64,000 nucleotides of DNA, from contig OY987243.1 of assembly GCA_963920765.1 (NCBI GenBank), positions 32,673,060-32,737,059 on the forward strand. Reading direction: 5' to 3'. Below the pieces are notes generated by a model that was not told the DNA's origin, made no database searches, and saw only the letters and a list, made by a program, of their open reading frames with translations. How positions within the stretch are numbered: the stretch's first letter is position 1; each line of letters opens with the position of its first letter. Shown one piece after another: positions 24,487-63,509 of the stretch. A program made the translations under genes and the position numbers. This DNA comes from Ulota crispa (taxonomy: Eukaryota; Streptophyta; Bryopsida; Orthotrichales; Orthotrichaceae).

Positions 24487-24490
24487 TTAA

Positions 24491-24718
24491 TCCCTAAATA
24501 TCTAAAAGTGCCTTTTGCAGCCAATACAATACAAGTTCTTATTTTTAATATTTGAAATGGATCCACACCTTTACTACATTTGAGATCAACAAAGAAATTG
24601 GAAAATAAATCAATGCAATTCTAGTGAGCTATTTGAGATTCCAATTCTAAACTTTTTGTTGGTAGCAAATGCCAATGATACAACAACATACCAACTATGC
24701 CCATGGGATGTTTAAGGG
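24491..24718. mobile_element. TTAA-type MITE, CCCTTAAA family, copy A
   Basis: Bounded by TTAA at 24487-24490 and 24719-24722. The interior aligns end to end with the copy at 32535-32764 (TTTGCAGCCAATACA, CACACCTTTACTACATTTGAGATCAACAAAGAA, TTCTAGTGAGCTA, TTGGTAGCAAATGCCA). The left end has diverged (TCCCTAAATATC). TTAA duplication with CCC ends is characteristic of piggyBac-like elements. Confidence 0.75.
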
Positions 24719-24744
24719 TTAAGGTTGTCATGCTTAGTATTTAA

Positions 24745-25303
24745 CCCCTAAGTGCTCAATCAACCATTTTTTAGTTGGTGCCCTTTTTTGCGGGCTGCTT
24801 GGGATGCAAAAAAACATTTTATTAAAATGAAAAATATTTTCAAGCAAGAAAGCAAGTCTAATTTCTAACCCAATTTGAATCATGTTAACCCAAGTTAAAC
24901 TCCACCATGGAGAATTTTTCAAAGATAAACTTTGCAACATTTGCTAGTATTATAAAATTTACTATTCCAAGAAACTAATGATGTTCTCTCCTTCAAAAAT
25001 AAATAAATTTTGAATTAGAATAGAATGTCTATTTTAAACCAATCATACCAAATTTTAAAGTCTATGAATAAATTTTTTACTTTTGATGAATATTAAATGG
25101 TAAACACTACTAAATTCATTAAATGAGAATCCAAAACTTTTTTTGAATGTTTGACCATATAGATAATTACTAAACACCATGATTCTTGTTCTCTATTTTG
25201 AAATAAAATTTATCAAAATTACAAAAATGTCATTTTATAACGCATCTATGTTTTGCCCTTACTCCTTGGGCATTTAGGGGTTAACCCCTTGGGCATTTAG
25301 GGG
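24745..25303. mobile_element. TTAA-type element, CCCCTAAGTGC end, with duplicated right end
   Basis: Left boundary TTAA (24741-24744) followed by CCCCTAAGTGCTCAA; right boundary GGGCATTTAGGGG followed by TTAA. The right end occurs twice in tandem (TTAA at 25281-25284 and 25304-25307), a 23 bp duplication. It is non-coding. Confidence 0.65.
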
Positions 25304-25734
25304 TTAAGTAAAGTTGTGAAGGTCGCTATAATGCAAACTACCTTTGCAAGACAATCAGCGGTGGGTCTTGCCAAAGTCCTTCCTAAGGACCTAGAATCCT
25401 AAAACTTAGTGGGAAATTGGGAAGGGAAATCCAACAACCAAAAAATTGACACTAAATACAATATCATATATAATTGTCACTTCATATTGACATACTTCAT
25501 TTTCAAGTGCAAAAACCCTTTCATACCATTTTAAACTCACAACCAACAAGATTGCTTCATTTGATTGACAATTTAAAATCAAGACCATTTAGGTTTCATA
25601 AATAGGGTTAGTCTACTATATTTTAATTGTCTAGCACTCCAACCTAGGGTTTTTTTCTTATCACATTTTTGCCTAAATCTTACTTGAATTTGTCATTGGC
25701 AACCACAACACTAAGAAATTTGGGTGAAAAATGG

Positions 25735-25899
25735 ATGAAATTGTCACATCCCTCCCCATGTAAATACCCATACTGCTAGATGTTTGATGAAAGTGGTTAG
25801 TATTAGTACATTTGTTGGATGAACGTGCACACATTGTTCATTCTTTTCAATTTTCCATTTTTCCTTACCTGCTTGCATTCTAGGATACGGGTTGCTCTA
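25735..25899 (+). repeat. Dispersed repeat, copy B, feeding into satellite
   Basis: Homologous in order to 14370-14602 (TGGATGAAATTGTCACATCC, GATGAACGTGCACACATTGTT, TTTTTCCTTACCTGCTTGCAT, GGGTTGCTCTAC). Where the first copy ends in ATTGATCCAAAAAAAAACC, this one runs into the CCTGATCAAAACAAAAAATAAA satellite. Confidence 0.5.
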
Positions 25900-27193
25900 C
25901 CCTGATCAAAACAAAAAATAAACCCTGATCAAAACAAAAAATAAACCTTGATCAAAACAAAAAATAAACCCTGATCAAAACAAAAAATAAACCCTGATCA
26001 AAACAAAAAATAAACCCTGATCAAAACAAAAAATAAACCCTGATCAAAACAAAAAATAAACCCTGATCAAAACAAAAATTAAACCCTGATCAAAACAAAA
26101 AATAAACCCTGATCAAAACAAAAAATAAACCCTGATCAAAACAAAAAATAAACCCTGATCAAAACAAAAATTAAACCCTGATCAAAACAAAAATTAAACC
26201 CTGCTCAAAACAAAAATTAAACCCTGATCAAAGTAAACCCTGCTCAAAACAAAAAATAAACCCTGCTCAAAACAAAAAATAAACCCTGATCAAAACAAAA
26301 AATAAACCCTGATCAAAACAAAAATTAAACCCTGATCAAAACAAAAATTAAACCCTGATCAAAACAAAAATTAAACCCTGATCAAAACAAAAATTAAACC
26401 CTGATCAAAAAAAAAATTAAACCCTGCTCAAAACAAAAATTAAACCCTGATCAAAGTAAACCCTGCTCAAAACAAAAAATAAACCCTGCTCAAAACAAAA
26501 AATAAACCCTGCTCAAAACAAAAAATAAACCCTGCTCAAAACAAAAAATAAACCCCAATCGAAACAAAAACAAAAAATAAACTCTGATCAAAACAAAAAA
26601 ATAAACCCTGAATAAAACAAAAAATAAACCTTGCTCAAAACAAAAAATAAACCCTGATCAAAACAAAAAATAAACCCTGATCAAAACAAAAATTAAACCC
26701 TGATCAAAACAAAAATTAAACCCTGCTCAAAACAAAAATTAAACCCTGATCAAAGTAAACCCTGCTCAAAACAAAAAATAAACCCTGCTCAAAACAAAAA
26801 ATAAACCCTGATCAAAACAAAAAATAAACCCTGATCAAAACAAAAATTAAACCCTGATCAAAACAAAAATTAAACCCTGATCAAAACAAAAATTAAACCC
26901 TGATCAAAACAAAAATTAAACCCTGATCAAAAAAAAAATTAAACCCTGCTCAAAACAAAAATTAAACCCTGATCAAAGTAAACCCTGCTCAAAACAAAAA
27001 ATAAACCCTGCTCAAAACAAAAAATAAACCCTGCTCAAAACAAAAAATAAACCCTGCTCAAAACAAAAAATAAACCCCAATCGAAACAAAAACAAAAAAT
27101 AAACTCTGATCAAAACAAAAAAATAAACCCTGAATAAAACAAAAAATAAACCTTGCTCAAAACAAAAAATAAACCCTGCTCAAAACAAAAAAT
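25900..27193. repeat. Satellite of ~22-23 bp units, 1.3 kb
   Basis: About 55 copies of a unit close to CCCTGATCAAAACAAAAAATAAA occur head to tail. Variants are GCTC for GATC, AAATT for AAAAT, and a truncated GATCAAAGTAAACC unit. A distinctive block (CCCCAATCGAAACAAAAACAAAAAATAAACTCTG) appears at 26551 and again at 27072, 521 bp apart. So a ~520 bp higher-order segment has itself been duplicated. No open frame is meaningful here. Confidence 0.9.
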
Positions 27194-27735
27194 ATGCTTA
27201 AACCCTGCTCCGGCCTTAACAACCAACCCCGATTTGACATTTCCCGTAATCCCGCCCATCAGTCAAAATGCCCGCGCGAATTTGAAAGTCCCGCCACGAG
27301 CAGAGGAGCCAGTGCCCAATCAACTCCTCCCCTAGATTTCAGCAACGGCAACAGCCTCGAAGCTAGATGTAGCAATCTACATATTGCTGTCCTTTGCGCG
27401 CTCTTCAGTACGGCGAAGCTTGTGAATGACGTTTCAAACCGGTGCTCGATCATCGCAAACTTTCAAGCACGCAGGCGCGATCAATCTCGGCCGGACGGAG
27501 GCAACGCTAACTTACCAGATATGAGCGTCACTCAATCGCATTTGCATCATCGTTATCAACAATGCGGCAATTCATCCTGAGCTAAAGCAGGAGTCCGGGG
27601 TTTGTAAGAAATCGCAGCACGAAGATCGACCTTTTCATGGTTTTGGAAGGATTCTGGAGCACCTGGCGCAACTGGCGCGACTGGTGAGAGTGCTCACTGT
27701 TAGGGTGGAGAGTATTAGGGTTGCGAGCTACGACT
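27194..27735 (+). promoter_or_regulatory. RTEL1 promoter / 5' UTR region
   Basis: A sharp rise in GC marks the interval between the satellite and the RTEL1 start codon. CCCGCGCGAA at 27271-27280 (TTCGCGCGGG on the other strand) resembles the plant E2F consensus TTTSGCGCS, and TGGCGCAACTGGCGCGACTGG lies at 27664-27684. E2F control would suit a replication/repair helicase, but this is inference from short motifs. Open frames here are incidental. Confidence 0.35.
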
Positions 27736-30700
27736 ATGCCGACGTATCGAGTTGCCCGCATCTCTGTGCAATTCCCTTACGATGCCTACGACTGCCAGCT
27801 CGTGTACATGGAGCGCGTCATCTCGTCTCTTCAGCAGGTATGCATGTAACCCTAAACGCTGCGCCATTGCAATGAATTAGCCGTTGCTGTCTGATTCCTC
27901 CGTGCAATTTTCCTTACGATGCTTACGACTGCTTGCTTGAGTAAGGTAATCACACTTATAAGCGACACTGCAATCGCTAAGCATAGTTACTGTTATCTGT
28001 ATGAGCAAGTTTTGATTTATTCTTGTTGGAAAACTGAAGTGGATTCCAATGTACTAAGGAATGTGTTGTTTGGATACTATATACAATCGTTCTAAGGGTT
28101 TAAAATATTTTAGACAGATGACCTAAAAGGAATTAGAGTTCTCAGAATTAGTATGTATTTAGTGTGTAAGAATTTAGGGTGTTATATACGTGTCACGATT
28201 ATGTGCTTCTACCTTACGTAATACGATTCATTTCGTCTCTGCAGCAGGTATTCCGTAATCCCGAAATCTTTGAATTATGTGGAATTTAATTTAGGTCATT
28301 AGACCTAAAAGCTGACGCTTTAAGCGCTTAGTTACAATTTTTACGCTGTGTACATTTGGTATTGATGTATTTGCAAGGGGACTTTAATGCACTGTATGCA
28401 AACGCTTATAATAGTCGAACTTTTGATTGGTAGACGATCGAACAATGACACTTTCTGATGTTCTGAGGGTGTATAATCTCAGAGTTAATGTGTAATGATT
28501 GTCCAAGATTCTAGTGTTGCGCATTTAGGTGCATGTTTCAAATAGGTACCTCTACCTTAGAAGAATCAGGGCGCTTTCTGTTGTCTGATTCACCAATTGC
28601 ATGGTCTGGTGATGTCAGGGACGAAATGCTTTGCTGGAAAGTCCAACAGGAACCGGGAAAACGCTGTGCTTGTTGTGCGCTACTTTGGCATGGCGTGAGA
28701 GCCTGGCACCTCCTCAAGCAGCCAGTCAATCCTCCCGCCCATCCTCTCAACGGATTTCGGCAAATTCCTCGCATCGGGCTACTATGAATCTCAGCCAAAC
28801 TCAAACTGATGAGGTCCTCGAGAAGCCGAGGTTGCCCACAATTGTGTACGCCTCTCGTACCCATAGTCAGCTTCAGCAAGTGATCCGAGAGCTGAAGGCC
28901 AGTTTCTACAGGTTGGGGCATTTATGAGAATGTTTTTGACCTTCGTTGTATGTCATCAAGGCTCCGGCTAGTTGCTAACCCTGCATTATAGTTTATTGTG
29001 TTGTAATTTGTGACAAGAAGATGTCTATATAGTGTGAATTGAAAATCCAGTTCAATGAGCTTCAAAGGGGTAGAGATTTGGTTATTGTTAACCTATTTTT
29101 GGCATGGTTTTTGGTATCACTTCCCAGGCCGAAAATGGTGGTGCTAGGTTCAAGAGAGCAAATGTGCATCCACCGTGACGTTCAAAACCTACGTGGAAGG
29201 GCTCAAAATCATTCCTGTCGCTCTCTCACCAAGGGTCGAAACTGTTCTCACTACAATCTCGTTGCAGGTGTGTGACTTCCTTTGCTTGGGATGGTAACCT
29301 GGTCGTTGATCATGGATTCTTTGCTATCAAGATTTTGAGGATTGAGTAAGTTACCAAGCCAGGTTGCATTTCACTCAAGGTGACTACTAAACTGTTTGTA
29401 GATTACGCAAAAAGCCATCCACAACTTGGAGAGGAGCCCATAGACATTGAAGACATGGTGAAAATCGGCAGAACTGAAGGCCCGTAAGTGTATTTTTGCG
29501 ATCTTACTCTGGAGTGCAATTGTAAAGCGAACCCCGGACGTTATTTCATTTTCGATCTGATAATTTACCAACAATATTTGACAATTTGAGTGCACTTGGT
29601 GCTGGTGGTTTTAATTGACTTGCTTTCTGGTGTTGGTCTAGAGCAGATGCCCCTACTTTCTCTCTCGTGAGCTTCACAATACAGCGGACATAATTTTTGT
29701 GCCCTACAACTATCTCATTGAAAAAGAAATGAGGCGCTCTCTAACAGGGGTCGCATGGAGCAGGACGATCCTCATATTTGATGAGGCTCACAATTTGGCA
29801 AGTTATTCGTGCATATCTTTAATTTGCAATTTCCAAGTTCTCGATTTAGCTTGATTTTGATTGGGAGGGCAAAGACGAGACTTCTTGTGCCAGACTATCT
29901 AGCTCTAAGATTACGATGCTGAATGCATGACATGATTACTAAGGCGATCTGTCCTGAAGACACATTATGAGCATTCTAGAAGCTTTGACAATACATTTGA
30001 GCGTGTATATTGATGAATTTGGACTGGGTGCAGGAAGGAGTTTGTGCTGATGCAGCTTCATTCGATTTGCCTGCAGCTCATTTGGCAAATTGTATTCAGG
30101 AGGCAAAGACCTGTGTAGCTTTAGCTCTAGCTCGAAGGGGTAATGACAATGCAGCTGATACTTCTGTCGATCCCGACAACTTTGCAGTTTTGAAAGGTAC
30201 TAGTACGTCCATTGTTAGTTCCTTGATACTAGCAACAACAGTATTTGGTTGTTCATAACGATACGGACATGAACTAAATATGGATAGGAGCTGAGAAGGA
30301 TCGAAAGAGATTTTTTTTTGTAATGTATATGTAATTGCTCCTGTATTGGAACTGCAGCACTCTTGTTGGAGCTAGAGAAGAGGATCAACGAAATTCCAAT
30401 TGGATCTGAATTAGGGTTTACTCGCCCAGGGCCTTACATTTTTGAATTTTTGGCGGAGATGAAAATTACTTACGAAACTGTTTCCATGCTCATTGATACT
30501 ATCGATCAAGCTACTGCGCTTCTTGAAGATGGTTAGTTGCGAACTGCAGTCTTAATAATGCTTTTTGCAGGCTGTTATCCTTGATAAGATATCCGCTTTA
30601 TATTGTTGTAAAATTGCCGATTTCGCATCAATGTGGTTGCATTCACAACACCGAAGTTTTTAGGCTCTTACAAGCATATTCGATTTTCAAAAGTTTCCTT

Positions 30701-33700
30701 TCATGTTAGTTTCTCCATTTTTGGAAATTTACAATAACTTCAGTGCCCGTACTATTGTGTAATAGAAGCGAATGAAGGAGCGGGAGGTAGAAAATCGAAA
30801 GCAGGTGGGTCTGGGACTGTGTATCGACTCTCAACATTTCGGGACGCACTAAGGATTGTATTCAGAGACAATGATGTGTCTCATGCTGGTTCGTATAAGG
30901 TGAGTAACTTTCGGCTAATTTTTCTTAGAGAAATGATTATGCTCTTCATGAGGAGCACTTTTAAGGAAGCTTCTGTTAACATATGATTATTAGAGCACTT
31001 TGTGTGTGAAAGAGCAATAGATTTTTCTCATCCAATACTGGTTCTATTATTTATGCGCGGATTCATAATAGCGGTGACTTATTTCTAGTTCCCTTGGTAA
31101 TTGACATTGTACAAAGCAATGACTCATGACAGCGCATCATGTTGCCAGGTTCACATCCATGAGCAAAGTGGTAGGGATGGGGACAAGGGTGCTGGAAAAG
31201 GTAATTTGTATAGAAGGATAACATAGTATTGCAATTAACAGACATCACATAGATGTTCAGAAGTTGGTTAGTTTAGACGATACGCACTTGATCATTTTCC
31301 GCCTTGTCTTATTAGTTGTCTCTCTGGTTTTATGATTGTGATTCAATCATCTGAGAAGGTACCAGCATGATGAACATGTGTGCATAGCAAATTTATCGCA
31401 GCACTTATGTACCCTGGTTTGTCTTCTTCAGGTGCAAAAAAGGGGCGCATGTTGAGCTTTTGGTGTTTCAATCCTGGTTTAGCAATGCAGGAGTTTTCAA
31501 AGATGGGCGTGGGCTCTATCATTTTGACTTCAGGAACATTAGCTCCTTTGGACTCATTTGCCATTGAATTAAACTTGTAAGAGCCATTCATGGTAGTGCT
31601 TTGCCGATCAGGAATGAGTCCCTGCTAAGTTTGTCACTGTGCTGCATAACACGTTTCTGAGCTTTCTCTGATCACATTGCAGGCCATTTGATGTGAGACT
31701 AGAAAACCCTCACGTTATTGACTCAAATCAAGTGTGGGTCGGAGTTGTTTCTTGTGGTCCTTCTGGAAGGCCCTTGAATTCATCTTATCGAACTCGTGAC
31801 TCCATCGAATATAAACTGGAGCTAGGAAATACAATTGGTACGACTCGTTCGTGCAAAAACAATACAGTTGTCTCATTTTGTAGGCACCAAAGAACTCTTC
31901 AGATTTGTAAGGCTTCAGTGCTGTTTCTTTCTGAACCAATGTAAATGCATAGTATTAGGGACAGAACCAGAGACATTGCAATAACGTATTTGTCTCCGTT
32001 GCTTCGCAGTAAATTTTGCACGTATTGTGCCTGATGGTCTCCTCGTCTTTTTCCCATCCTACTATCTCCTGAACTCTTGCATCGAAGCTTGGCAAACAGT
32101 GGTAAGGAATTTGTTTTTGGGTATGTACTTTAATGTTCCAAATGGCTTTCCCTTCTCGTTTATATTTGGTATAATTTTTCAGCTTGAGGTAAAACAAAGG
32201 CTGATTGACGGAACATTTCATGCAGACGTCTGGGTCAGCAGCCACAGCAGCCACGGTTTGGGAACGTATCTGTAGGAACAAGCAACCTGTTGTTGAGCCC
32301 AGAGAATCAGCTCTTTTCAACCAAGCTAATGAGGTAAACTTTCTTACATGGCAGTATTGTTGTTCTATCAGATTATACTTGAAATTTTCTGCCGTGCTTC
32401 ACTGGCTCCAAATTATTTCGGCTTCATTTGATTCTTGTTGGCCCAGTCGAAGCCCATATGACCTTCAGTTTCTCTATGCGTCTTCCAAGATGTGGCAAAT
32501 GAAGATGAACTGAACAGGCTTGTGTTATGTTTAACCCTTAAAGGACCGAGGAGCCCTTTGCGGCCAATACAGTATTTAGTATTTTCTTGTATTTGGAATG
32601 CATTCACACCTTTACTACATTTGAGATCAACAAAGAAGTTAGAATATATCAATGCGGTTCTAGTGAGCTAGTCAAGATCCCAAATTAAAACTTTTTATTG
32701 GTAGCAAATGCCAGTTATACGGCAGCGTATTTACTATGTAATATGTAGAGCGGTCCTTTAAGGGTTAATGTCGTTGCAGGATTTTGTAGCTAAAATCAAT
32801 GACACTACCTCTAAAGGGGCTATATTCTTTGCCGTCTGTCGAGGGAAGGTACTACTACTTTCTCACTTATTTTTCCAACATAACTCAGTGAATTATGTTC
32901 TCATGCTCAAGTTTAGCTATAGTTTTTTCTAAGATAGTATACGTATTTATATTCTTTTAACTCTTGTTCACTCGTAGGTGAGCGAAGGGCTTGATTTTGC
33001 AGACCGAGCAGGACGGGCTGTTATTGTGACTGGAATACCGTTTGCCATGAAGATGGATCCCAAGGTTTTGCAATTTGGATTGCTTTTTATCTTATTTGTG
33101 GACATTGATTCGTTTTCTGTTCTTTTAAGTAGGAACGATCTCTTGTTAGGAACTAGATCGATCAACGTGGTGTTTATCAAATTAGTCTTGTTTGATGTGG
33201 CAGGTGAGATTGAAAAGAGAGTACCTTGATGAGCTGGCTCGTTTACCAGCTACGAAGCATAAGGTGAGTTTTCCTTCCATTTCCCCCTTATGTTGAAGAC
33301 AAGGGCATCGCATGTATGTAACACCTGTTGCTTCGGCAAGTGGCCAACTTGGCTGAAAAAGTCAGATCTACTGAAATGGTTTCTTTTAAGCAATTTGGGG
33401 ATGACAGGCTTGTTTCAATATCTGCATATTATATTGACATTTATACAGGTAGTTTATTTTTTTCTGTTGGTCCGGTAAATCTGAGGTTGGGAGGCTGAAT
33501 CGGAAGGGGAATCGCAGTGCATTTACAGTATGTCAAGCATGCTCTAAATTTCTTCATTGGAGTACACACTTACAGGTTATATCAGGGGAAGAGTGGTACG
33601 TCCAGCAAGCATCGCGGGCAGTCAACCAGGCAATTGGGAGAGTAATCCGTCATCGCAATGACTATGGAGCCATCATTCTCTGTGATGAAAGGTTCTTTCC

Positions 33701-37009: not shown

Positions 37010-40000
37010 CACACGTATTAAGCTATTTTGCGAAGTAGCAGCATAAAGCGCCATGCTTTGTCACAAAATGCATGGGAGGTACGCAATCCTGTACCGAAAG
37101 CATCCCGACGTCAGTGGCTGTTTGCTTGATAGGACCGAATTGTGCAGATTTTGTGATTACTTGCATGTTTCTGGTTGCCATGTGTCGTTCAGTTCCTCAC
37201 TTGCATCACCCGTTTGTTATTGAATCTTGTGTACAGCTTGGGATAATTGGTAGGTGAAATCGAACCAAGGATGGTATATGGTTAGTACTCTCCAGCTCTT
37301 TCAAAAGTTTGGTTATGCAGTCTCCAGCGCATTTGCCAGGTCACTGGCGCATTTCATCACTTTCCATGAAACCAATAACTTCTTGCAATATTCTGATGGT
37401 GTAGAATTTAACCACTTCTGAACTGTATATTTTTATTAGCACGCTGAGTGGAATCGGTGTTTATAAAACCACAATCTTTTCGGCGCGATATACGAAGGTG
37501 ACTCTCTGGGCCGTTACTGCTGAATTCGACATACCTCAATCTTTGTAATTTTTATCATCAGTTTTTAGTGACTAGGTCTAGGAAGCGTGGCAGCAAAACT
37601 TTACTTCCAATTCAAGAGGACTTCCTGGGTAATAAGAATGCAAAGGAAAGAGTTTTCAATTATCTTGAGTAGTTCGAGGTTGGAAGGGACTAAGGACGAC
37701 CCATTCCATTCCACTTTGATGTTCGCTGTCAGGCCTGGCTGTACTGGTGGCATTCTAGGCCTCAAATGTACTAACTACAGTACTCTTTGAAATTTGAATA
37801 TAGTTTGCAATCATTGAAGCTCTGATGTGTATCTTCAAACGTAATCTAGTAGAAAATTGCTTCTATTCTGTATAAACAGGGTATGAATTTGATACTTTTG
37901 TAAAATAATTGGAGGACAATGCTGAATTTTTGCTGTCAAGATGTGACTTTGTAAAACTGTGTGAGTTTCAGGCACCTTTCTAGAATGTTATGTACTCTAA
38001 CTATATATTTTTGCAATTAAAGAAATTTTTAAAAATATATAAAAATTGTCAGAATGACATTTTCTTTAAATTTTTGAGTATTGCAGGACTTTTATAACCC
38101 TATAAAGACCACGCATTTTCACAATATCTTCACAATATCCACTAGAAACTGGGGTAGTCAACTTAGATGTGCAGTTGAATCAAATGTGGACCCAATTTTA
38201 AGAACTCAACTGAGAAGAACACCTTGTTTATTAGTATAAATAATCTAAATTTGTACCAAATCTATTGTTGTAGGTGAAATAGTATAATGATTGAGTGAGT
38301 TGTATGTGGAAAATCTTTAGTTTGTCATGCTTGTGTAGTTTTGGATCTTAATACTTCATACAAGTTTTGCTTGAGAAGAGTCTTATATTTCTAAAAAGTG
38401 GGCTTTCCCACCTTTCCAATAAGATTAATCTCACTCAAAATGGATAAAAATAGCAATCACAAGGTGTAGCTAAGTGGACAAAAAGGGTAAAAAATCCCAC
38501 TTTATTTGCTACCCTAGGTTCTACAAGAAACTTGATAAATTTTACATAAAGTCCAATTGGTGAAAACAATCAAGAATTGGCCTTGAAAGTAGAATGAATT
38601 TTAAAAAAAATGATAGCACCATTTCAATAGATTTTCAAATACCACAATTATACTACTACTGTATAGATAAACATTACAAGTGTATATCTTAAGCAATTTA
38701 AAATTTTTTAGAATTGCACAATTGAAATGTGACATTCCTCTTAGATGTTTGATGTGTCGTGTTGTCGCTTTGATCCATCTTTGACCAAGTATGGATACAT
38801 ATTTCAAGGCCATGTTGTATAAACATCATTATTTATCAACTCACATACCCAATTCCATTATTGTTTTGGTTGGAGCGAAATTCTCATGATCACAAGTATT
38901 CTTCAAGACCAACTTCCAAATTGTTGTTACACTATAGGCCAAAAAATACTTTCCTGAACCAAAACATGGTTCGGTGATCTCTACAAAGTTAAAGTTTTAT
39001 TAATTGTCACAAGACACAAATTAAACCCAAATGACATTTAAATTTGTGTCAAATTTATGACTTTTAAACAAGCACAAATTTTGTTTGTCCTTTTTAAAAC
39101 TCCAAAGTCTCATTTTTTGCAAACCATACTTGTGTTTGGTTATTTATTTTTCAAGCACCATAGCATGTAATCACCCATTAGTGAAAGAAGTTTTTGTTTG
39201 TGCTTTGTGGAATCGATGTTCCCTAGATGTAAAAATTCTACATGTTATTGGAATTATTGAGTATTGGTCATATTTTGGAACATGAATAAATAGATTTGTC
39301 CTATACAGGTTACTTCAATTAATGTGAAACTTTGGATAGTGCAAGACCTCTCCACACTACTTTGGGTGGATTTTCTTAAATTATTGTGAAAATGTAGCTT
39401 GCCTCTAGCCCTTGTTCTCCAAGTAGGGTTTTGATTACAATGGTTTGCTGCCCCTCAAGTTAGAATTTGGCTATGCAACCTCCATAATGATGCATCTCAC
39501 ACATTCTAATTAAGGTACAAGCTTGCAAAACCTCCTCAAAGTTTTGGCTACTTGAGTCACACTGTTTCATATAGTACTTGAGTATTGTAGCCCACAATAA
39601 GTATTGTAACCCACAATTTATGAATAACCTAAATCATTGTGCATTTCTTTATTAGTAGGCCTTGCAAATTCCTTGATTTCTTAAATTAGTGTGAGTTGGT
39701 GTTGTTTGTGTAGGGCACAATAATTGTGTGATATTAACAAACAAAAATCAACAATATGTGTCCAATATCCCACTAGTGTTATCATTACTCAATATTAGTC
39801 ACATTTGGAAACAATGCAATGATGTTCAAAAACATAGTTGTAATCTATTAGTCTCTAGTTGTTTACTATTAAAATTTTGATATGCATAAAGCATTCTACA
39901 TCAACTCATTTTGTTGTAGCAAATGTTTTGACTTCCTTAATCTTTAACGTTCATACTTTTGGATGTACAAATGATAGCATTTCTAGGTATTTTCGGTGGA

Positions 40001-42945: not shown

Positions 42946-42993
42946 CAATGGCTGCTTGCATTGTTGGGTGCCACTAAAAAAACCAAAATTTAA

Positions 42994-43623
42994 CCCCTAA
43001 ATGCTTGAGGCTTTTTTTGGGCTTTTGGAACTTGTTTCAAATTGAAGGAAAAGGTAACTTATTAGTGAGATGTATCAAGTTCTTTTGAATTGTAATTGTA
43101 CAAATTCAAACTATAGATGTTAGAAGTCACACAAGAAAAGAAAACACAACAATATCACTAATGGATTGAAAGATTATAATGTTTGATCATGAGGGTGTTA
43201 AAACTACAAAAATGACTTGAAGCCTTTGAATCCTCTTTTCACATGTTGGATCTAAAAAAATGACCATCAAAAAAAAAGGTTAAAGGAAATAACATACATA
43301 ACCCCAATCACTTTATAGCTTTTCAAAATCTTTTCTACAAAATTTTCAAATGAATTTTTTATGTATATTTTTCTCCAAGATCTAGAGTATTTGAGGCTCA
43401 TTTCCAAGAGCTCTCAACACTAGAGAAAGTAAAGAACCTTGTTTAAAAGCTTGAATAAAAAAGTCGCAATTGATCATTTTCAAAATTAGATTGTTGATCC
43501 TAAATTTAGACTTCACAAAGAATAAATCCATAATGTAAAGTACTAAAAATAATAACTTAGTTAGGTTTATTGAACTTCAGAGTATTGCAAACACCAAAAG
43601 TTGGTGCCGCATGCATTTAGGGA
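42994..43623. mobile_element. TTAA-type element, CCCCTAAATGC ends
   Basis: TTAA (42990-42993), then CCCCTAAATGCTTGAGG; right end GCATGCATTTAGGGA, then TTAA (43624-43627). The body is AT-rich and non-coding. Its right TTAA is shared with the next element. Confidence 0.7.
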
Positions 43624-43627
43624 TTAA

Positions 43628-44388
43628 CCCCTAAGCGCCCAAGCTGTATCCACCAAAATCAGAGTTTTTGGAGACTGACAACTTTGATGCATCATATCTT
43701 GGTCAATTGGATGATCCACAAAAAGTGACCATTGAAAATAGTGGAACACCTGCTTAGAAAATGACTTGCAAATTTTGGAAATAATTCACTACGGGAGATG
43801 GGAGATTATAACATTTGATCAAACAGCATGTGATCACAAAATTTCATTTTTTGGTAGGTAGTTGCTATTTGATGATTTTTACAAAATTCTATAAGCCTTG
43901 GATTCATCTCAAATTTTGTGGGCAACAAGATCAAATGTGAATGCAAACTCTTGTAAATTATTGAAGATTGTACTTTTTATGTCAAATTTTAGGGCTTCAA
44001 ATTGCTAATGCATGGAAACAATGACCGGCACAATCGATGACAATTGCCATAATAAGGGTTTAGAACATGCTTGAACCCTTGCCAACAACTTTCCGGCTAC
44101 CACAAAACTTACACAAGGAAGCTTGCATGGGATATTGACCGGTTGCAACATGTAAAACTTTGCTTGCTAAACTGGCCCCGTTGCCCCGTACGGTGTTTCA
44201 CCAAATCAAATCTCTTGTAGCGCTTATACAATAATTTGGCTTTCCTTGCCATTACTCCATTGACATGGACAACTTGAATGCCTTTATAATTATAGTTTAT
44301 AGCAAGACCAAAAAGTTAGATCCAGTGCCTCAAAACTAGGCTTTAAAATCTAGAGCAACCAGAATCTGGTGGCTGGGGCGCTCGGAGG
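43628..44388. mobile_element. TTAA-type element, CCCCTAAGCGCCC ends
   Basis: Left end CCCCTAAGCGCCC after the shared TTAA at 43624-43627; right end GGGGCGCTCGGAGG followed by TTAA at 44389-44392. The body includes GATGCATCATATCTTGG and GATCCACAAAAAGTGACC, the latter similar to the pair at 62754-63378. Confidence 0.7.
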
Positions 44389-44392
44389 TTAA

Positions 44393-46598
44393 TCCCTAAA
44401 GGACCAGATCCCTTTTTTTTGGAAACATAGCAATTTTGGATAGATACTTGTGATTGGAGCTTTCCCTTAGGGGGGTCACACCCCTTTACAATTGGATACC
44501 ACTTGCGATAATGGGGTAATTTAATGGGGGGTATTTAGATTCTTTAAGGTAAATTTTTCCTCCCTTTTTGTAGATAAAAAGCTACTTTAGTGTATCTTAG
44601 GGTACCCTATGCTTACTTCTAAATGGTCGTATGACCTAATTTTTCAAACCCTATTTTTTTTACAAACACAAAAGTATTATAAGAAAAAATTATATGTATA
44701 CAATGGGTTTATAGAAGACTTTGGCCCGCAAGAAAATAGCATAAGAATTTAACACATAGCAAGTCCCTCAAACCATACTTATGAATCAGCCTTCTTAAAC
44801 CCTAACCCACTCCTAACAATTCAAATTACCCAACCACATGCATACTCACAAAACGGCAAATGACAAGCTTTGAAGCATTGAACCCTAAAATGGAGAAGAA
44901 AAGAGGAAAGGAAGAAAACTAGGCAGATGACAACATGTAAGTCTAAGTGTGAACCCAAGCTCTTATTGTCAAGAACTGCAGAAAGAATTGAACGATAAGG
45001 CTGACGTCCACCACCGTCGTTGGTGGAAGAATATAAGAAATCCAACCCTAAATGCGCCAATGAAGAAAACAAATCCAACCTTGAATGCGAACCCCACTAA
45101 GCTCACACTCTTGCACTTGCAAGTACATCGTTGTGAAGAAAATTATGTAAAAAGGATGACAAGCTTCAATTGCACAACACCCTCACTGCCACTTTCAACG
45201 CGCTCAAAAAATTCAAGGAGAGAAAAATTGCAAACAACAAAAAAGCAATCTCAAATTTGAGAATCCAAAGTGCTAGCAAGAGCAACAATTAGCTTAGCAT
45301 AACAGCGTGTAAAGAAGTCAACGCGTAAAGAATCTAATATGCTCGCCAGCACAAACCCTACTCTCAAGATTCCACAACAATGCCAACCTTTGCCAGCACG
45401 TGTGACCTTTATTCAAATACCCTACAGCCCGTTGCTAAACCCTAAACTGTTACAACCCAAAACCCAGACAGAAAAAACCATTTTTCATCTATATTGCTCA
45501 TGAACTCTAAACCCTACACATCCTACTAAACTCTTTTAGGATAATCCTATAATTCCCACCCTATTTTTTTCTACAATATTCTAAAATGGAGGATTATACA
45601 CCACCCTATTTTACATATAATGAAGCAAGACATATATTTCCAATGCTATAGTAAATCTAAAAAGATATAGAATTTATCTCTAGTGAATAAAATTGACCCT
45701 ATTTTTTATCTCACGTAGTTTACTAAAAATTGGAGAATCACCTCCCCAAGAGCTTTGCATACTTTAGGCTGAAATTTTAATAGAATGTGGGGACAAGGTT
45801 TATCTTTCATGTGCACTAAACTTCATGACATTTGGAATTATGAGTAAAAAGTTATGGCCTAACATGTTGTTTTTTACGTTTGGCAGGCAGCTTGGGCAGG
45901 TTTTTAAAAATTACATTTAAAAAAAATATTAATTGTAAATGGGTTTAGGAAACTTATGTGAATGTAAGAAGCTTTGAATCATTCCATTTTGATCAACAAG
46001 ATGAAAGTTATGAGGATTTTTAGTTTGTGGGCAGTTATGGATTCTCTACTCCAAAATAAACTTTGAAGTCCTTTATTTTACTCAATTTTCATTATTTTGG
46101 AAAAAAACAAAACCAAAGAATGTAGATTGTTTATTATAACATTACAACCATTGGGATTGGCGTTTTTCATTTCCAAAATTAAATTCTTAACAATTTTGTG
46201 TTTTGAATCATTCTCTACTTCTTTTTACTAACTAATTTTTTTCCATATGTTATACAACTTCAAATGATTTGAAATTTTTTTGACATGTACTTTACTTAGG
46301 TGGAATAAGTAACTTAGAGAAGCACCACCCAGATGGCCTTTTTTCCTTAGGAATTTCACCTTCCAAAAGTAGTTGCTTGATTTTTCACAAGACGTATTTG
46401 AATATTCAAACCATTCTAACTTCCAATCCACATGGTGGAAAACTCTAAATTTTTTTCCACACCTTCTAAAACTATTCTTCTACAAGATCTTATGATCACA
46501 TATGCATAAAAATGTTTTTGTTTTCAAATTTGGTTGATGCTCTAAAAATGATAGTTTTGAAGAGTTTTTGGTGAAAACTTTGCTTGGTCCTTTAGGGG
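44393..46598. mobile_element. TTAA-bounded 2.2 kb region, possible compound element
   Basis: Left end TCCCTAAAGGACCAGA directly after the TTAA at 44389-44392; right end CTTGGTCCTTTAGGGG before the TTAA at 46599-46602. The ends share CCTAAAGGACCA in inverted orientation. At 2.2 kb this could be one larger element or two neighbours mispaired. The open frame at 44949-45260 has no recognised domain. Region 44750-45500 is locally richer in GC with TAAACCCTA motifs. Confidence 0.45.
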
Positions 46599-46639
46599 TT
46601 AAAGGCTGGAATGAAACTTCATAATAACGCATTTTGAAA

Positions 46640-47010: not shown

Positions 47011-47222
47011 GCAAGCTCTAGATTTGGGGGTTATAAAAAGGCTTATTTTGCTAATGACTGTATGTGTTTTGACTTGTGCTTCCATGGTAAATTGTTGTGG
47101 TAAAGTACTATGCATTGGTACATGAGCCAATACTATCCTATTCTCACCCTTGAGGCATCAAGAACTTTATTATCAATAGGACTTGTGATGTTAGATTTTG
47201 AAGCCTTGTTACATTTGCTTAA

Positions 47223-47582
47223 CCTTAAACGGCGAGGAGGACGATTTTTTTTGTCCTCCGGCTCCAAAAAAACATTATGTATGACGGGAAAAAAGTCATT
47301 TTTTCATTTGATTTTTTTCAAAAGTCTAAATACATGGTCCATCATGGAAGGCAAAAAATTACCTCATTACATGCACTCATATTTTTAGGTAACCCAAAAT
47401 GTGAGAAGATTCAGAGCCACAGTGTTAGGTCCCAAGCTATCCTTATTGCAATTTTCATTGGACACCATGCACTGTTGACTTTTGCAATTTTAGAAAAGGA
47501 TATTATAATTGTTGGGCACTTCCTGAACAGTGAATAACACTGTAGCCAAGCTGGTCATGGTGACTAGCCCGGCATTTAAGGT
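47223..47582. mobile_element. TTAA-type element, copy 1 of a three-copy cluster
   Basis: TTAA at 47219-47222 and 47583-47586. The left end is CCTTAAACGGCGAGG, the right GCCCGGCATTTAAGGT. The interior is shared with the next two elements: TTTTTTCAAAAGT, CATGG(T)(G)CATCATGGAAGGCAAAAA, TGTTAGGTCCCA, TGCACTGTTGACTTTTGCAATTTT. Confidence 0.7.
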
Positions 47583-47586
47583 TTAA

Positions 47587-47957
47587 CCCTTAATCACCAA
47601 AGTGGGTTTGTCCCTTGGTCATAAAAAAAAAACACTTTGTAGCAAAACCAAAAAAGTTGTTTTTCATCTGATTTTTTTAGAAGTGATCATAGATACATGG
47701 TGCATCATGGAAGGCAAAAACAACCTCATCAAATGCACTCATGTCTCAAGGTAACCCAAATTGTGAGAACATTCAAAGATATGGTGTTAGGTCCCATGTT
47801 ACCTTTTTTGCAATTTTCATGAGGTCAACATGCATTGTTGAGTATTGCAATTTTTAAAAACAATATTATAATGGGTAGGCACTTGTCACACCACTGTAAA
47901 GCCTTGTGGAGCATTGTAGAGGGGCTGGTCATGTGACCAGCTTGGCATTTTAGGGGT
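47587..47957. mobile_element. TTAA-type element, copy 2 of the cluster
   Basis: Abuts copy 1 and shares the TTAA at 47583-47586; right TTAA at 47958-47961. Left CCCTTAATCACCAAAG, right CTTGGCATTTTAGGGGT. The interior aligns with copy 1 throughout. Confidence 0.7.
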
Positions 47958-48074
47958 TTAACTTTGTGTAACTTGCTATAATAAAGGACACTTTGCACTT
48001 GGACTCTAGGCCATCCTATTTTAGGGCCTTTTATACCAAAAATTCAACACATGTATGGCCTTAAGAATAGTTAG

Positions 48075-48436: not shown

Positions 48437-48440
48437 TTAG

Positions 48441-49739: not shown

Positions 49740-49743
49740 TTAA

Positions 49744-49968
49744 CCCTGAGCCCCCAGCCCATATTCATCAAAATCTTAACCCACTCACACTCAATCCAAC
49801 CAAATTGTCATCACAGACAAGATCTACAAAATCTAAGCGTATTGAATGGTAGGAGAAACAAGCTCCAAAGTATATGGAAAAGGACAAATGGTTTGCCGTA
49901 CCAATAGAAAAATTATAACAAGTCAAACAAGAACTTTTTCATTTATGAGGTCCTGGGGCGCTTAGGGG
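49744..49968. mobile_element. TTAA-type MITE, CCCTGAGC / GCGCTTAGGGG ends
   Basis: TTAA at 49740-49743 and 49969-49972. The ends CCCTGAGCCCCCAG and CTGGGGCGCTTAGGGG are inverted. The body is 225 bp and non-coding. Its right TTAA also supplies the TAA of the next (PIF-like) element. Confidence 0.65.
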
Positions 49969-50377
49969 TTAAGAGCATCTTTCACCCTTCTTACCCACAT
50001 AGAGCACACAAAGGAGGGTTTGAAGTGAGCTGATTTCCTTAACGACAATTGCTCTGATGGGTAAGCCAACCTTCTTCATCAACCACACTCACCAAGGGAT
50101 GCTAATGGGACCACCGACCTATATTGTCAAAACCTCCTCTATTTCATCAAAGCAAGCAATTAAAGAAGCATGAAGAACAAATCAACTTGTCCATGCTACA
50201 AGCCACAACAATCACGAGCCACCTTACAGAAAAGACCAACTTACAAAAATAAAAGCAACAACCAAGCACGTTGAATTTTAGAGACAACACTAGAGTTTGA
50301 TGTCTTCAAGGCAAAGTTTGGTGCGGCCTACCAATTTTCCCTAGACTTCCGCTAATCCCAATTTGCAAGCCCGTTAA

Positions 50378-50618
50378 CCCTAGAGTGCCTAGAGTTGAAA
50401 CAAAAAAAACTTGACTTGTGTGCAATCAAAGTGCCCTTGTGGATTGAAAAATACAATCCATAAGATTGGACCATATGAATTGTTAGTGGAAAGCGTCTCC
50501 ATCATGCCAGACTAGATTGGAAGTGGTTTCACCAAATGTGCAATGAGATTATATTGGTCAAAATTGAGTTGACCCAACTTTTTGAGAGACATTATAATGT
50601 CTCTTGGGCGCTCAAGGG
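50378..50618. mobile_element. TTAA-type MITE nested in PIF-like element
   Basis: TTAA at 50374-50377 and 50619-50622 (the latter shared with the next element). Ends CCCTAGAGTGCC and GGGCGCTCAAGGG are inverted, with TTGGGCGC before the right end. Confidence 0.65.
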
Positions 50619-50622
50619 TTAA

Positions 50623-51714
50623 CCCCTAAAGGACCATTGTCCCTATGGGGGACAAATGAAATTTTGGGCATGTACCTATGGCTAAACTACTTTGCGTGAT
50701 TTTTTGAAACTTTTATGGATGATGCAGAATTCAAATATTTACATGGGCAACTAATTTTTTCTTCATCTTGACATTTATTGAAGAAGTTAAAAATGAATTT
50801 CAAAAAATGGGCAAGATTGGGCTGCCCAAAAACTTCTGCATTAAATATAAATAAAAATAAGAAATATGTTCTTTAGACTTATATATAGGTGGGGAGCTTT
50901 GAATCATTCAATTTTGATTAATGAGATGAAAGTAATGAGAAATTTTTAGTTGTGGATTGGTGTGGTTTTGAGAGAAACCTTACCTACCCGCAAATGAAAG
51001 TTTCTCATAAATTTAATCTCATTAATCAAAATTGAATGATTCAAAGCTCCCCACCTAAAATAAGTCTGAAGAACCTTTTTTTTCTTTTTAAAATATTTAA
51101 TGTAATTTTTAAAGAATTTTTTGGGCTGCCCAATCTTGCCCATTTTCTAGAAATTCATTTTTAACTTCTTCAATAAATGTCAAAAAGAAGAAAAAATTAG
51201 CTGCCCACATAAATCTTTGACTTCCCCATCATCCATAAAAGTTTCAAAAAATCAAGCAAAGTAATTTAGTTGTAAGTAAGGTAGGTGCACCCATAAGCGT
51301 GGAAATAAGGGTTTTGGAGTAGGTAAAACAATTGACTAACTTTGAACAAAATACTGTAAGTTAGGAAATGGAAACCAAAAATATTGGCATCAATTTCAAG
51401 ATTCCAACTGCAAGCATTTGTTCACAAAGATTTTTCAAAGTCCAAAATCACTAAAATTGTAGGAACCATGTGTAAGAGATGCTAATCACAAGGCTTGTTG
51501 GTTCTTAAATAGTGAGATGGGTACTCAAAACCTCATGCTAGTCACACACAACCATCACTTCATCACCCATAACCATCACTCAATCACCCACAACCATTTG
51601 TATTTTTATTGATTAGCCCTGCCACTGTCAAGTGATGTGCATGGGGACGCAACGCTTATGGATGCTACTACCTTACATGCCCAAAATTGCATTTGTCCCC
51701 CGGTCCTTTAGAGG
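50623..51714. mobile_element. TTAA-type foldback element
   Basis: TTAA at 50619-50622 and 51715-51718. Ends CCCCTAAAGGACCATTGTCCC and CCCCCGGTCCTTTAGAGG are inverted. Arms of ~270 bp (50680-50960 and 50990-51275) are nearly perfect inverses, including GGGGAGCTTTGAATCATTCAATTTTGATTAATGAGAT and its complement. Expect a very long hairpin. The left arm matches 56706-57060. Confidence 0.8.
51278..51674. mobile_element. AGGTAGGTGCACCC-ended TIR element nested in foldback
   Basis: Left AGGTAGGTGCACCCATAAGCG and right CGCTTATGGATGCTACTACCT are inverted, with TA at each boundary. It carries short tandem CATCACT(C/T)(C/A)ATCACCCA repeats at 51550-51595. It sits inside the foldback element. Confidence 0.7.
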
Positions 51715-51765
51715 TTAAGGCAGGGCCCAATACTTGATCATGTGACAAGGGTGAAGATGCTCTAA

Positions 51766-53320: not shown

Positions 53321-53357
53321 AGATATATATATGTATATATATATATATGTATGTATG

Positions 53358-53420
<63 letters not shown>
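53321..53420. repeat. (TA)n microsatellite with ATGT interruptions
   Basis: About 100 bp of alternating TA, the left 45 bp interrupted by GTATG units. Such tracts are unstable and can extrude cruciforms. It interrupts no gene seen here. Confidence 0.95.
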
Positions 53421-53426
<6 letters not shown>

Positions 53427-56701: not shown

Positions 56702-56705
56702 TTAA

Positions 56706-57669
56706 CCCCTAAAGGCCCATTGTCCCCTCAGGGGACAAATGGGATTTTGGACAGGTACCTATGGCTAAACTACTTTGCGTGATTTTTTGAAACTTTTATT
56801 GAAGATGGGGAATTATAAGATCTGCATGGGAATCTAAATTTTCCTTCATTCTGACAATTATTGAAGAAGTTATGCATGAATAACTAAAAAACAAGGGAGA
56901 ATTGGGTAACAAAAAAAAAAAAAAAAAAAAAAAAAATCGCAACTTTAAAAAAAAAAGTAATTGGTTCTTAAAATTTTTAGGTATTTGGGAAGCTTTGAAT
57001 CATTCAAATCTAATAGATGAGATGAAAGTTATGAGAAGTTTTAGTTTGCGGGTAGATATGCAAACTCCCAAACCTCCATTCCTTTTTCCCCTTGTAAATT
57101 TTGTTGCTTTACTTTTTTGAGCTCTTTGTATATTTTTTTTTTTACTTTTTTTTTGCAAGTTTTAGTAGACTAAGATTCCTTGGTTTTCACCATTTGGATC
57201 AAAGTAATTTGGGTTTTTGAATTTTACATAATTCCTCCAATTTTGCCTAGTGTATATGCAAATTTCATGGCCTTACAACATTGCAGGATTTTACAAAGTA
57301 TGATCCACACCTCTATTTCATTTGAAAATTCTCCCACATTTACCTAACTTGGTCTTCTACATGGGAAAAATAAACCTCAACTTTGCATAGAGTAATTTTT
57401 TTGATATAGGAGCTGTTAAAGGCTTTTGAAATTTTTGAGCAGCAGGGAAAAAAACGTTTGTTTTCACTTCAAATGTCAATATCTCACTCCTCTACAACAA
57501 TAATGAGCTGATTTTTTTCCCACAAGTACCTCCCATAGTCTAGGGCAAGATCTTCTAGTTGGATTTTCCAAAAAAAAAAAAAAAAAAAAAAACATTTCTC
57601 CTCACTCCCCCAAAAGTGGCAGTTTTGAGTGATTTTCACCCAAAAAAAAAGGGCTTGGGCCTTTAGGAG
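56706..57669. mobile_element. TTAA-type element, relative of foldback arm
   Basis: TTAA at 56702-56705 and 57670-57673. Ends CCCCTAAAGGCCCATTGTCCCC and GGGCTTGGGCCTTTAGGAG are inverted. The left ~350 bp matches the left arm of the foldback element (ACCTATGGCTAAACTACTTTGCGTGATTTTTTGAAACTTTTAT). Two A-runs (56910-56936 and 57569-57591) lie within. Confidence 0.75.
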
Positions 57670-58527
57670 TTAAGTTCCTAAAATGGTGCATGCACAAGTA
57701 CAATTTATGAACATAAAAAACGTGATCCATTTAAGAACCTCCTTGCAATGTTTTTGCGACCCTACATGGTCCATTCCAAATGGATGGACCGAATTCAAGC
57801 AAACTACCTTAGTCAACAACATTTTGAAAACATATGAGCCTAGTTCTTATTACTTTATGGGATATTGGACTATTAGTTGCCTAAGCCAATAGCACAAGTT
57901 CCATATTTGATGAGTTTACCATTGGGTCCCTCCTCCATGAATTGTGCACTTTAGCGCAAAAAGCTCAAAATTCCAACACTAAGAGCATCTCCACTCATGC
58001 ACTCTTCATAGAGTGCACCAAGCAACTCTTGGAGTGTGTTAATTAGCTTGAAGGGAGCGGCTACATTTTTTAGCTCCACTTGTGCTCTTCAAAGTGGCAC
58101 ACTAAGGGCAGATGGTGGGGCCAGTGCAAGGGTGCTAAAGTGTGAGCGAGGAGCGTTGAGCGGTGAGCGTTGAGTAGTGAGCAAAAATTCTTGAGAATTT
58201 GGAAGTTGAAAATGATAATTTAATGAACTTCATACAATTGTAAATATACAAAAATAGTCATTATATGAATTATTTTTTTGATGTTGTATGAAAATCATCC
58301 ATTTAAAAGAACAAATGAAGAATCATATTGAATGAATGAAAAATTATATGGATGAATGAAAAATTACAAGGATGAATGTAGATGAAAGGAAGACAACAAA
58401 TATGATGCTAATACGTTTATAATGATACATTATAATAAATAATCAAGGCAAAGTACTTGAAAACTAGAGGATACAAAATTTCATAGATTTCCACTTTTTC
58501 AAAGAAAGAAGATCAAATACAAGAATG

Positions 58528-59125: not shown

Positions 59126-59374
59126 AAATAAAATAACAAAAACACAAAAAATCATTTAAGGCAAATTTGTGTTCATTAGATTTGAATTGTTTAATTCAAC
59201 ATTATTCTCAAATCAACTTAATAGCAAAATGATAATTTTGGTAATTTTCTCTATTACAGGTCATTTTAATTGATTTTTGCCAAAAAATAACTAAGTTTTT
59301 AATTTCAAACCTTAAATTTTGTTGAAATTTCTTATATTGCAATTTTAACAAATTTTGTGTCTCTTTTACAAGAC

Positions 59375-59690
59375 ACACTTAGAGTACAACAGTGCCTCCT
59401 AGGTTCCGAGGAAGGTCTTGAAACAAAAAGAGGTAACTTGCAAAAGAAAAACAAAAAACAAAAATGAAAACAAAAATTTTGAATTTTTTTGTTTTTTTTT
59501 GTTTTTTTTTTGTTTTGTTGTAGGAGGGCACCTCGGATTCCAAGGAAGGTTTTGAAAAATAAAATAAAAAATAAAAAAAATTGTAGGAGGGTTCCTCGGA
59601 TTCCGAGGAGCACTTTACAAAACCCACAATGTACCCAAAATGACCTCCTTGGTTCCAAGGAGGGCCCTAAGACAAGAAGAGGAAACTTGT
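59375..59690. repeat. CCTCGGATTCCGAGG palindrome repeats, copy 1
   Basis: A run of short modules, each GGAGGG(C/T)(A/T)CCTCGGATTCC(G/A)AGGA, separated by A/T tracts. The segment GAGGAGCACTTT(A/G)CAAAACCCACAATG and ACCTCCTTGGTTCCAAGGAGGG recur almost exactly at 61584-61765. Confidence 0.75.
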
Positions 59691-61583: not shown

Positions 61584-61765
61584 AATTGTAGGAGGGCACC
61601 TCAAATTCTGAGGAGCAAAAAGGGGCCCCTTGCAAAACCAAAAAAATTAATTAATTAATTTGAAAAAAAAAAATTGTGGGAGGGCTCCTTGGATTCCGAG
61701 GAGCACTTTGCAAAACCCACAATGGGCCCAAGATGACCTCCTTGGTTCCAAGGAGGGTCCTAAGC
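61584..61765. repeat. CCTTGGATTCCGAGG palindrome repeats, copy 2
   Basis: The second occurrence of the same modules in the same order and strand, ~2 kb downstream, still inside the 4.7 kb element. Nearly identical to 59580-59670, suggesting a recent intra-element duplication. Confidence 0.75.
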
Positions 61766-62393
61766 CCCCCCATTTGGTCCAAAGAGGGGGTTTGTAGTGT
61801 GCAAGTGAACTTGTAAATGTTAGTATATCATAGCTTGAAGCTTTTTTGCAATGTGAGGTTTTTTTTTAATGTCCTATTTATGCACGTCTATTCATTAAAT
61901 ATTCCAAACTCACATCATAATCTCATTCATTGGATGATAATTGGATGGATGATGGATGAATGATTGGATGAATGTTTTTTGATCATGGATGAATGATATT
62001 CATTCTTCATCTGTTTCAAATTTCCTTTCATGTGCATAAACTAAAATTTCTACCATTTTGCTTTTACTACCCTTATTTGGACAATGCATGAATTTATAAG
62101 AGCTCTCTTCCTCCAAGTTACTTGATGATCTTTTCATTTCTAAGAGTTGTTCTATTACTATTTTATGGGCTAACTTCATTTTCTATTACTCAAAAATGAA
62201 TATTTTTTAATAAAATGTAAACACTCACTGCTCAAATCTAACTGCTCATTGCTCACCGCTCCCCGCTCACACTTTAGCTACGCTAGGGCCGATGGGGCTG
62301 CATGCATGAGTAAAATCCCTACCCTAGAACATGTGATTGGATAATAGCAAGTTTTATTAAAGCAATCTTCCTGCTCCTTGGAACATGAATGGG

Positions 62394-62396
<3 letters not shown>

Positions 62397-62438
<42 letters not shown>
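62397..62438. repeat. Poly-T tract
   Basis: Forty-two consecutive T residues. It could be the tail of a retroposed sequence on the minus strand or simple slippage. Confidence 0.9.
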
Positions 62439-62439
<1 letters not shown>

Positions 62440-62753
62440 TAATTTGGGAGATAGAAGATTGCTTTCCAAAGAAAGATGCAAAATTTTAGCTCCTTAAAAT
62501 TTGAAGATGACCTTGGAGCTTGATGTCTCTTGAAGGGCGCTTAGCAAGGCTGGCTATATTACATAGTTTGGTGAGTCCCTAATGGACCTTAGTTTGGAGG
62601 CTGGACTAGGCAGGACCCAATACTCTCCCATTTGGAGAGGAGTGGATATGCTCTAAGTTGCTAATTGTCTTATTTAGCACTCTCATACTAAGAGGCAAAT
62701 GGGGTTGCTTTAAATTGGCTAGCATTAGGAAGAAAATAGTGCTTATTTGTTAA

Positions 62754-62983
62754 CCCCTAAGTGCTCCAGTGACGGGATTTTGTTGTTCGGGATCCCAAGT
62801 TGATCTTGCTTTTTCTCTCGATCCGAACTGTGAAAAAAGTTGTGCCTAGTCCCCATCAGCAAAAAAGGTAGTCTTTTTTTAGATCCTACGGTCATTTTTT
62901 TTGAATGTAATTTTCCAAGCTGTGGTGGCCATCAAACCTCCCATTTTCTCCTAAACCCTAAAACAACTCTGAGCACTCAAGGG
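62754..62983. mobile_element. TTAA-type MITE, CCCCTAAGTGCTC ends (inverted partner 1)
   Basis: TTAA at 62750-62753 and 62984-62987. Ends CCCCTAAGTGCTCC and GAGCACTCAAGGG are inverted. The right half is an inverted copy of the left half of the element at 63149-63378. Confidence 0.7.
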
Positions 62984-63148
62984 TTAAAGGGAGAATAAGA
63001 GTTTGGGAATTTTTTTGGCTTCACCTACTAAAATCCAACATCTTTTGTGATCAATTGATTTTTTCCCATGCCATATCAAATATTTTTTAAATTTACACTA
63101 CAACATGATATAATTAGATCTTAAAAATAAAATCTAATTGATTTTTAA

Positions 63149-63378
63149 CCCCTGAGCGCCTAGAGTTATTTTTGGATTTTGGAGAAAATGGGGGGTTTAA
63201 TGGCCACCACATCTTGAAAAATTACATTCAGAAAAAGTGACCGTAGGATTTGAAAAGGACTACCTTCTTTGCTGATGGGGACCAACCATGACTATTTTCA
63301 CCATACAAATTAAGAAAAAAAAATGAGATGAAGTTGTGGGCCTCAATGACAGGATGCTGTTGCTAGGGCACTTAAGGG
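63149..63378. mobile_element. TTAA-type MITE, CCCCTGAGCGCC ends (inverted partner 2)
   Basis: TTAA at 63145-63148 and 63379-63382. Ends CCCCTGAGCGCCTAG and CTAGGGCACTTAAGGG are inverted. It is the same family as 62754-62983 in the opposite orientation: GGAGAAAATGGGGGGTTTAATGGCCACCAC here, its complement there. Confidence 0.75.
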
Positions 63379-63509
63379 TTAACTGGTGGTTTCAAAATGC
63401 AACCAATTTTTTTCCTAATTTCACCTGCTCACTTTGAACCAGCTGCCAAAAATTTCCACACATTGGGGGGAATTTACCAAAAGGAGCCAATACATGTTTG
63501 CCCGCATTA

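Follow-up and report, generated by a model that had tools for sequence, protein, structure and literature searches.

Abundant TTAA-flanked miniature elements in a plant genome, very probably of the piggyBac superfamily

Miniature inverted-repeat transposable elements (MITEs) of plants are as a rule placed in Tourist, Stowaway, hAT or Mutator, and piggyBac is best known from animals. The 64 kb stretch of DNA analysed here (the window, meaning the stretch at its full length) lies in a plant genome of 274.8 Mb and carries a series of short elements which are flanked by TTAA and end in inverted repeats starting with CCC, and which, as we argue below, are very probably MITEs of the piggyBac superfamily. 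Described piggyBac elements have inverted repeats of 12–19 bp beginning CC[C/T]T and duplicate TTAA (PMC2872659; this and the other sources cited are represented by extracts). The elements described here have in common with that superfamily a sequence-homologous DDD (triple-aspartate) transposase, the TTAA target and short CCC-starting repeats, and their CCCTT-type repeats fit CC[C/T]T exactly; they differ in having a plant host and in that the commonest repeat, CCCCTAA, has one C more than is usual. Animal piggyBac elements measure 1.23–9.51 kb (PMC10813416), a range which includes the full-length elements found here.

The coral CMITE and AmiPB elements (PMC2872659) are likewise piggyBac MITEs with a TTAA duplication and similar repeats: AmiPB5 has CCCTTAGAGACCTA, compared to CCCTTAGAGACCACC here at a short element beside the transposase gene of locus C4, and CMITE III begins CCCCT, like our commonest repeat. 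However, the coral elements are about 100 bp long, each family having an estimated tens to hundreds of copies, whereas those described here are 0.2–1.4 kb long and have tens of thousands of ends. Because the repeats are alike in corals and in this plant, an ancient origin can be tested against a horizontal one.

In a survey of 257 species piggyBac was among the superfamilies that every group, including land plants, contains (PMC4438587), and insects, fungi and plants are named as sources from which piggyBac was isolated (PMC10813416). The repeat table for Ceratopteris gives 1,230 small piggyBac pieces, making up 0.00% of the assembly (PMC6890710), whereas here paired elements cover 5.3–7.4% of a 200 kb sample, made up of twenty 10-kb stretches spaced 2 Mb apart on two chromosomes, and full-length elements occur together with putative short derivatives. 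One of two text matches in a moss paper (PMC10619864) is the word "piggybacking" and not a transposon, and no account of a large plant piggyBac MITE population was found among the papers listed from the literature searched, in which subscription journals were thinly covered (titles and abstract openings only). The presence of piggyBac in plants is already known; the scale and the link from short to full-length elements are the new part.

The piggyBac transposase domain PF13843 has at least 120 matches in the genome (best E 1.3e-73; a lower bound, with 116 of 528 candidates scored), none of the listed places falling inside the window, and no match in any of 14 control genomes. When the transposases of L029 and C5 were compared with PDB (the latter in two pieces), the only matches at the thresholds used were to 6x67 (Transposase), which we take to be T. 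ni piggyBac, and to 9c0f (piggyBat transposase). In the alignment, aspartates of the C5 copy stand opposite residues D268, D346 and D447 of 6x67, presumably the catalytic aspartates of piggyBac. A C-terminal cysteine-rich domain is a defining feature of piggyBac; a cysteine-rich tail is visible at L034:1546-2013 (minus strand), its alignment to the piggyBat tail not being significant.

At four of eight transposase loci the gene lies between TTAA-CCC ends which agree with each other in at least 11 of 14 positions, giving full-length elements of 7,495 bp (C1), 5,102 bp (C2), 5,027 bp (C3) and 5,746 bp (C5), compared to 0 such end pairs in 1600 locus-replicates of shuffles of the same eight loci. 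These transposase genes therefore sit inside elements bearing TTAA-CCC-type ends. The inverted repeats of C5 (CCCCTAAATGCCTAA) are perfect (15/15), and this repeat type is found also at short elements, e.g. L007:1501-2154; a left-end candidate at 731 of the joined C5 locus (11/14) was rejected in favour of that at 2390 (14/14). The C7 locus was not counted as a complete element, as its right end resembles a common MITE end but its left end was not found. For the earlier note made on this DNA from the sequence alone, full-length relatives with a transposase of another superfamily would have overturned the piggyBac assignment; the transposase found in them is piggyBac (PF13843), the transposases of other superfamilies not having been searched for.

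A genome search was also made with the terminal 120 bp at either end of C5. Other than C5 itself, 39 scored matches to the left end (77–82%; 394 candidates) and 39 to the right end (93–96%; 1478 candidates) were listed, and comparison of the two lists by eye found both ends facing each other at four places, 819–943 bp in all. From TTAA to TTAA, the four short elements at these places comprise 113–135 bp of the C5 left end (78–79%) and 523–587 bp of the right end (84–86%), with no match to any of the C5 gene in the same comparison. Judged by sequence likeness, short elements thus have both ends in common with one transposase-bearing element, C5, and these four resemble what internal deletion of a C5-like element would leave. 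One of them, L045, has no match in the window among its matches in window plus sample.

MITEs of the Kolobok superfamily, which also duplicate TTAA and have been reported from chlorophytes (PMC9587614), would fit the target site. However, Kolobok termini are given as 5'-RR and YY-3' in the same source, whereas here most listed ends are 5'-CC and GG-3', and the transposase inside such elements is PF13843 (no search was aimed at Kolobok transposases); we therefore regard a Kolobok origin as very improbable.

In the sample plus window, TTAA precedes 19 of 23 long-form repeats, and the 53 short CCCYTAA cores with TTAA on their 5' side have no fixed base beyond it. Among 39 element candidates tested for empty sites, L021:6170-7105 is inserted in a host repeat of which four other copies (in L010, L015, L003 and at window 38498-38867) lack the element, and each of these has exactly one TTAA at the site. 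The clean empty TTAA site, one of the two deciding observations set beforehand in the earlier note, is seen in 4/4 copies for this one element, the copies being paralogous repeats within one genome and not alleles. Two further candidates were dropped as weak, L020:2831-3471 (four rows at ~67%) and L025:8145-9069 (a single row).

MITEs of Sola3, PIF/Harbinger (3-bp duplication) or Tc1/mariner (TA) with a preference for TTAA could leave an identical sequence trace, by a shorter duplication within the preferred site. For the 3-bp TWA duplication of PIF/Harbinger, the symmetry around TTAA argues for 4 bp, although the palindrome is compatible with a shorter duplication. The repeats here start CCC and are symmetric around TTAA, and the full-length elements carry a piggyBac transposase (no search was aimed at Sola3, Harbinger or mariner transposases), so that we give an origin from any of these superfamilies very little credence.

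The window contains 16 copies of TTAACCCYTAA, compared to 0.18 on average, and never more than 3, in 100 shuffles. The whole-genome search for the end motif proposed in the earlier note gives a large excess over the reversed motif: 17,299 + 17,363 = 34,662 occurrences of TTAACCCCTAA against 115 + 116 = 231, and 5,658 + 5,635 of TTAACCCTTAA against 695 + 701. Paired elements in the sample number 12 to 19 at three scan thresholds, with 0 pairs in 5 shuffles, and at the middle threshold the window has 5 pairs (one nested in another) covering 3.6%. The 638-bp element at window 42990-43627 has 40 other listed matches (4140 first-look candidates), of which 39 are 89–92% alike, 34 of these spanning all 638 bases, the remaining one being a partial match at 79%. 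This plant genome carries many thousands of piggyBac-type MITEs. It is next to inconceivable that the TTAA/CCC ends merely arose by chance from AT-rich sequence, for although some window ends are weak, the reversed-motif control already refutes a chance origin and both the shuffles and the long homologous copies of 42990-43627 stand against it.

We read the window elements as piggyBac MITEs because of the excess of ends, the empty sites, the PF13843 matches, the full-length elements and the link from short to long elements; the PF13843 transposase of the full-length elements and the one-TTAA empty sites of L021:6170-7105 in particular bear out the piggyBac assignment first made from the window alone. 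In the mechanism that we propose, full-length elements of ~5–7.5 kb would encode a DDD transposase that recognises the short CCC-starting inverted repeats, excises the element and inserts it at TTAA, so that it comes to be flanked by TTAA on either side. Short copies without the gene would retain the ends and be moved in trans, at least one family of them resembling an internal deletion of a full-length element, and repeated insertion at TTAA, including TTAA next to older elements, would build the chains seen in the window. A transposase of this kind presumably moved the window's own copies, by cut-and-paste chemistry if the analogy with piggyBac holds.

A number of observations weigh against this assignment. 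TTAA stands 5' of only 53/101 short CCCYTAA cores and 5/41 CCCTT[TC]A[AG] cores, and as TTAA is palindromic the length of the duplication is not uniquely readable. In 33 element-free rows for three other elements, whose repeats have diverged, TTAA lies at the aligned place in only 6, and none of the three was counted as clean: L020:5904-6627 (4 of 23 rows, the closest row, at 88.6%, being among the 4), L025:4072-4303 (1 of 8) and L025:6747-7674 (1 of 2). Most PF13843 matches contain stops (10/120 rows are stop-free), and the C5 transposase copy has one stop within the domain. Only a right end was found at C4 and C7, and no end at two other loci within the 5.5 kb examined. The four short elements were selected for matching both C5 ends, being 4 of the 39 other places listed per end, and so demonstrate existence and not frequency; no window element was matched over both ends to a transposase-bearing copy, the link being made for a different family whose repeats are of the same type.

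We think it possible, though doubtful, that piggyBac is a leading MITE-forming superfamily in this plant lineage and is still mobile, with intact-looking transposase frames remaining and several diverged transposase subfamilies each feeding their own MITE families. If piggyBac MITEs are what these elements are, piggyBac can expand massively in plants, to tens of thousands of ends with its own transposases and short derivatives, and native plant elements become available for the study of piggyBac transposition. The element is of a known kind, and it is the host and the scale that make the case notable.

Stop-free transposase matches, in L033 with L043 (C1:1.18 Mb) and in L029 with L042 (C4:3.59 Mb), lie in GC-richer stretches, at 0.46 compared to 0.385 in the sample. 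These matches may represent either intact elements or host-domesticated genes; at the C1 locus both TTAA ends are still present (11/14). Transposase matches of equal or near-equal score also occur in pairs on opposite strands (C7:18203169 and 18223004; C10:676128 and 785346; C2:36765124 and 36779670), ~15–109 kb apart, a pattern that suggests recent inverted duplications.

The TTAA-bounded features of the window are as follows, with coordinates given without strand:

24487-24722: short TTAA element, ends TCCCTAAATATC / CCCTTAAACATC; a relative of 32531-32768 (79.6% over 191 bp) despite its weak ends
24741-25307: short TTAA element, ends CCCCTAAGTGCTCAA / CCCCTAAATGCCCAAG; two candidate right ends, at 25284 and 25307
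32531-32768: 238-bp TTAA element, 18/18 terminal bases inverted (TTAA plus CCCTTAAAGGACCG)
42990-43627: 638-bp TTAA MITE with many close genome copies; right TTAA in common with 43624-44392
43624-44392: TTAA element, ends CCCCTAAGCGCCC / CCTCCGAGCGCCCC; left TTAA in common with 42990-43627
44389-46602: TTAA-bounded stretch, ends TCCCTAAAGGACC / CCCCTAAAGGACC; TTAA at 44389 in common with its left neighbour 43624-44392
47219-47586: TTAA element whose ends are degenerate; 76% likeness to 47583-47961 on its right
47583-47961: TTAA element, TTAA in common with 47219-47586; one extra A at the right end
49740-49972: TTAA element, ends CCCTGAGCCCCCAG / CCCCTAAGCGCCCCAG
50374-50622: TTAA element, ends CCCTAGAGTGCC / CCCTTGAGCGCC; TTAA at 50619 in common with the next element
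50619-51718: 1100-bp TTAA MITE, partly fold-back, ends CCCCTAAAGGACC / CCTCTAAAGGACC
56702-57673: 972-bp TTAA MITE, ends CCCCTAAAGGCCC / CTCCTAAAGGCCC
62750-63382: 633-bp fold-back element between TTAAs (70.5% identity to its reverse complement), arms 62750-62987 and 63145-63382

All 13 element starts listed in the earlier note have TTAA immediately 5' (13/13). The intervals themselves stand in part: the best have clear inverted repeats (32531-32768, 42990-43627, 24741-25307, 56702-57673, 62750-63382, 50619-51718 and 43624-44392), but five (47219-47586, 47583-47961, 49740-49972, 50374-50622 and 24487-24722) have weaker ends, which carry one base too many or too few or else several mismatches, and the supposed element starting at 63149 is the arm 63145-63382 of the fold-back 62750-63382 and not clearly a separate insertion. 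The list also lacked 44389-46602, which is joined to 43624-44392 by one TTAA. Aligned over 62 columns, the right ends of 56702-57673 and of the C7 transposase locus are 81% alike. No transposase was found among the 10 of 26 window open reading frames (at least 110 amino acids) searched against Pfam, which gave one weak sub-threshold match, and Rfam at gathering thresholds gave no match within the window.

The sharing of a single TTAA by neighbouring elements, reported at 43624, 47583 and 50619, is real at all three places. The neighbours at 43624 and at 50619 have different repeats, as separate insertions would, and those at 47583 are relatives. Two elements around a single TTAA (TTAGGGGTTAACCCCTAA) occur at 453 exact places genome-wide, compared to 0 for the control. 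The sample puts the number of TTAA sites at an estimated 1.69 million, and half the ends counted makes ~17,300 elements whose two ends are both exact; random insertion into TTAA would then give ~178 such junctions, so that the observed number is ~2.5 times the random one; chains are therefore expected from the mechanism and somewhat enriched.

That the host is a photosynthetic plant, as had been supposed, follows from 56 genome matches to the chlorophyll a/b-binding family, which among the 14 control genomes matches only a cyanobacterium. The best PDB match of one such gene is the multi-domain chain 9vfj_2, and among single-domain chains 8htu_U and 7xqp_a lead, ~17 bits ahead of the next listed. 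These two are taken to be chains from the moss Physcomitrium patens, and the host is therefore likely a moss.

Among 9 elements tested for fold-back structure several are fold-backs, some of them only partly or less closely, and the rest, such as window element 42990-43627, are not; for L020:5904-6627 the identity to its reverse complement is 83% across the whole 724 bp. Transcripts of fold-back MITEs might fold into long hairpins and so supply small-RNA silencing. The largest strand asymmetry in the window, at the step used, lies at 26001-28000 (GC skew -0.338, AT skew +0.398).

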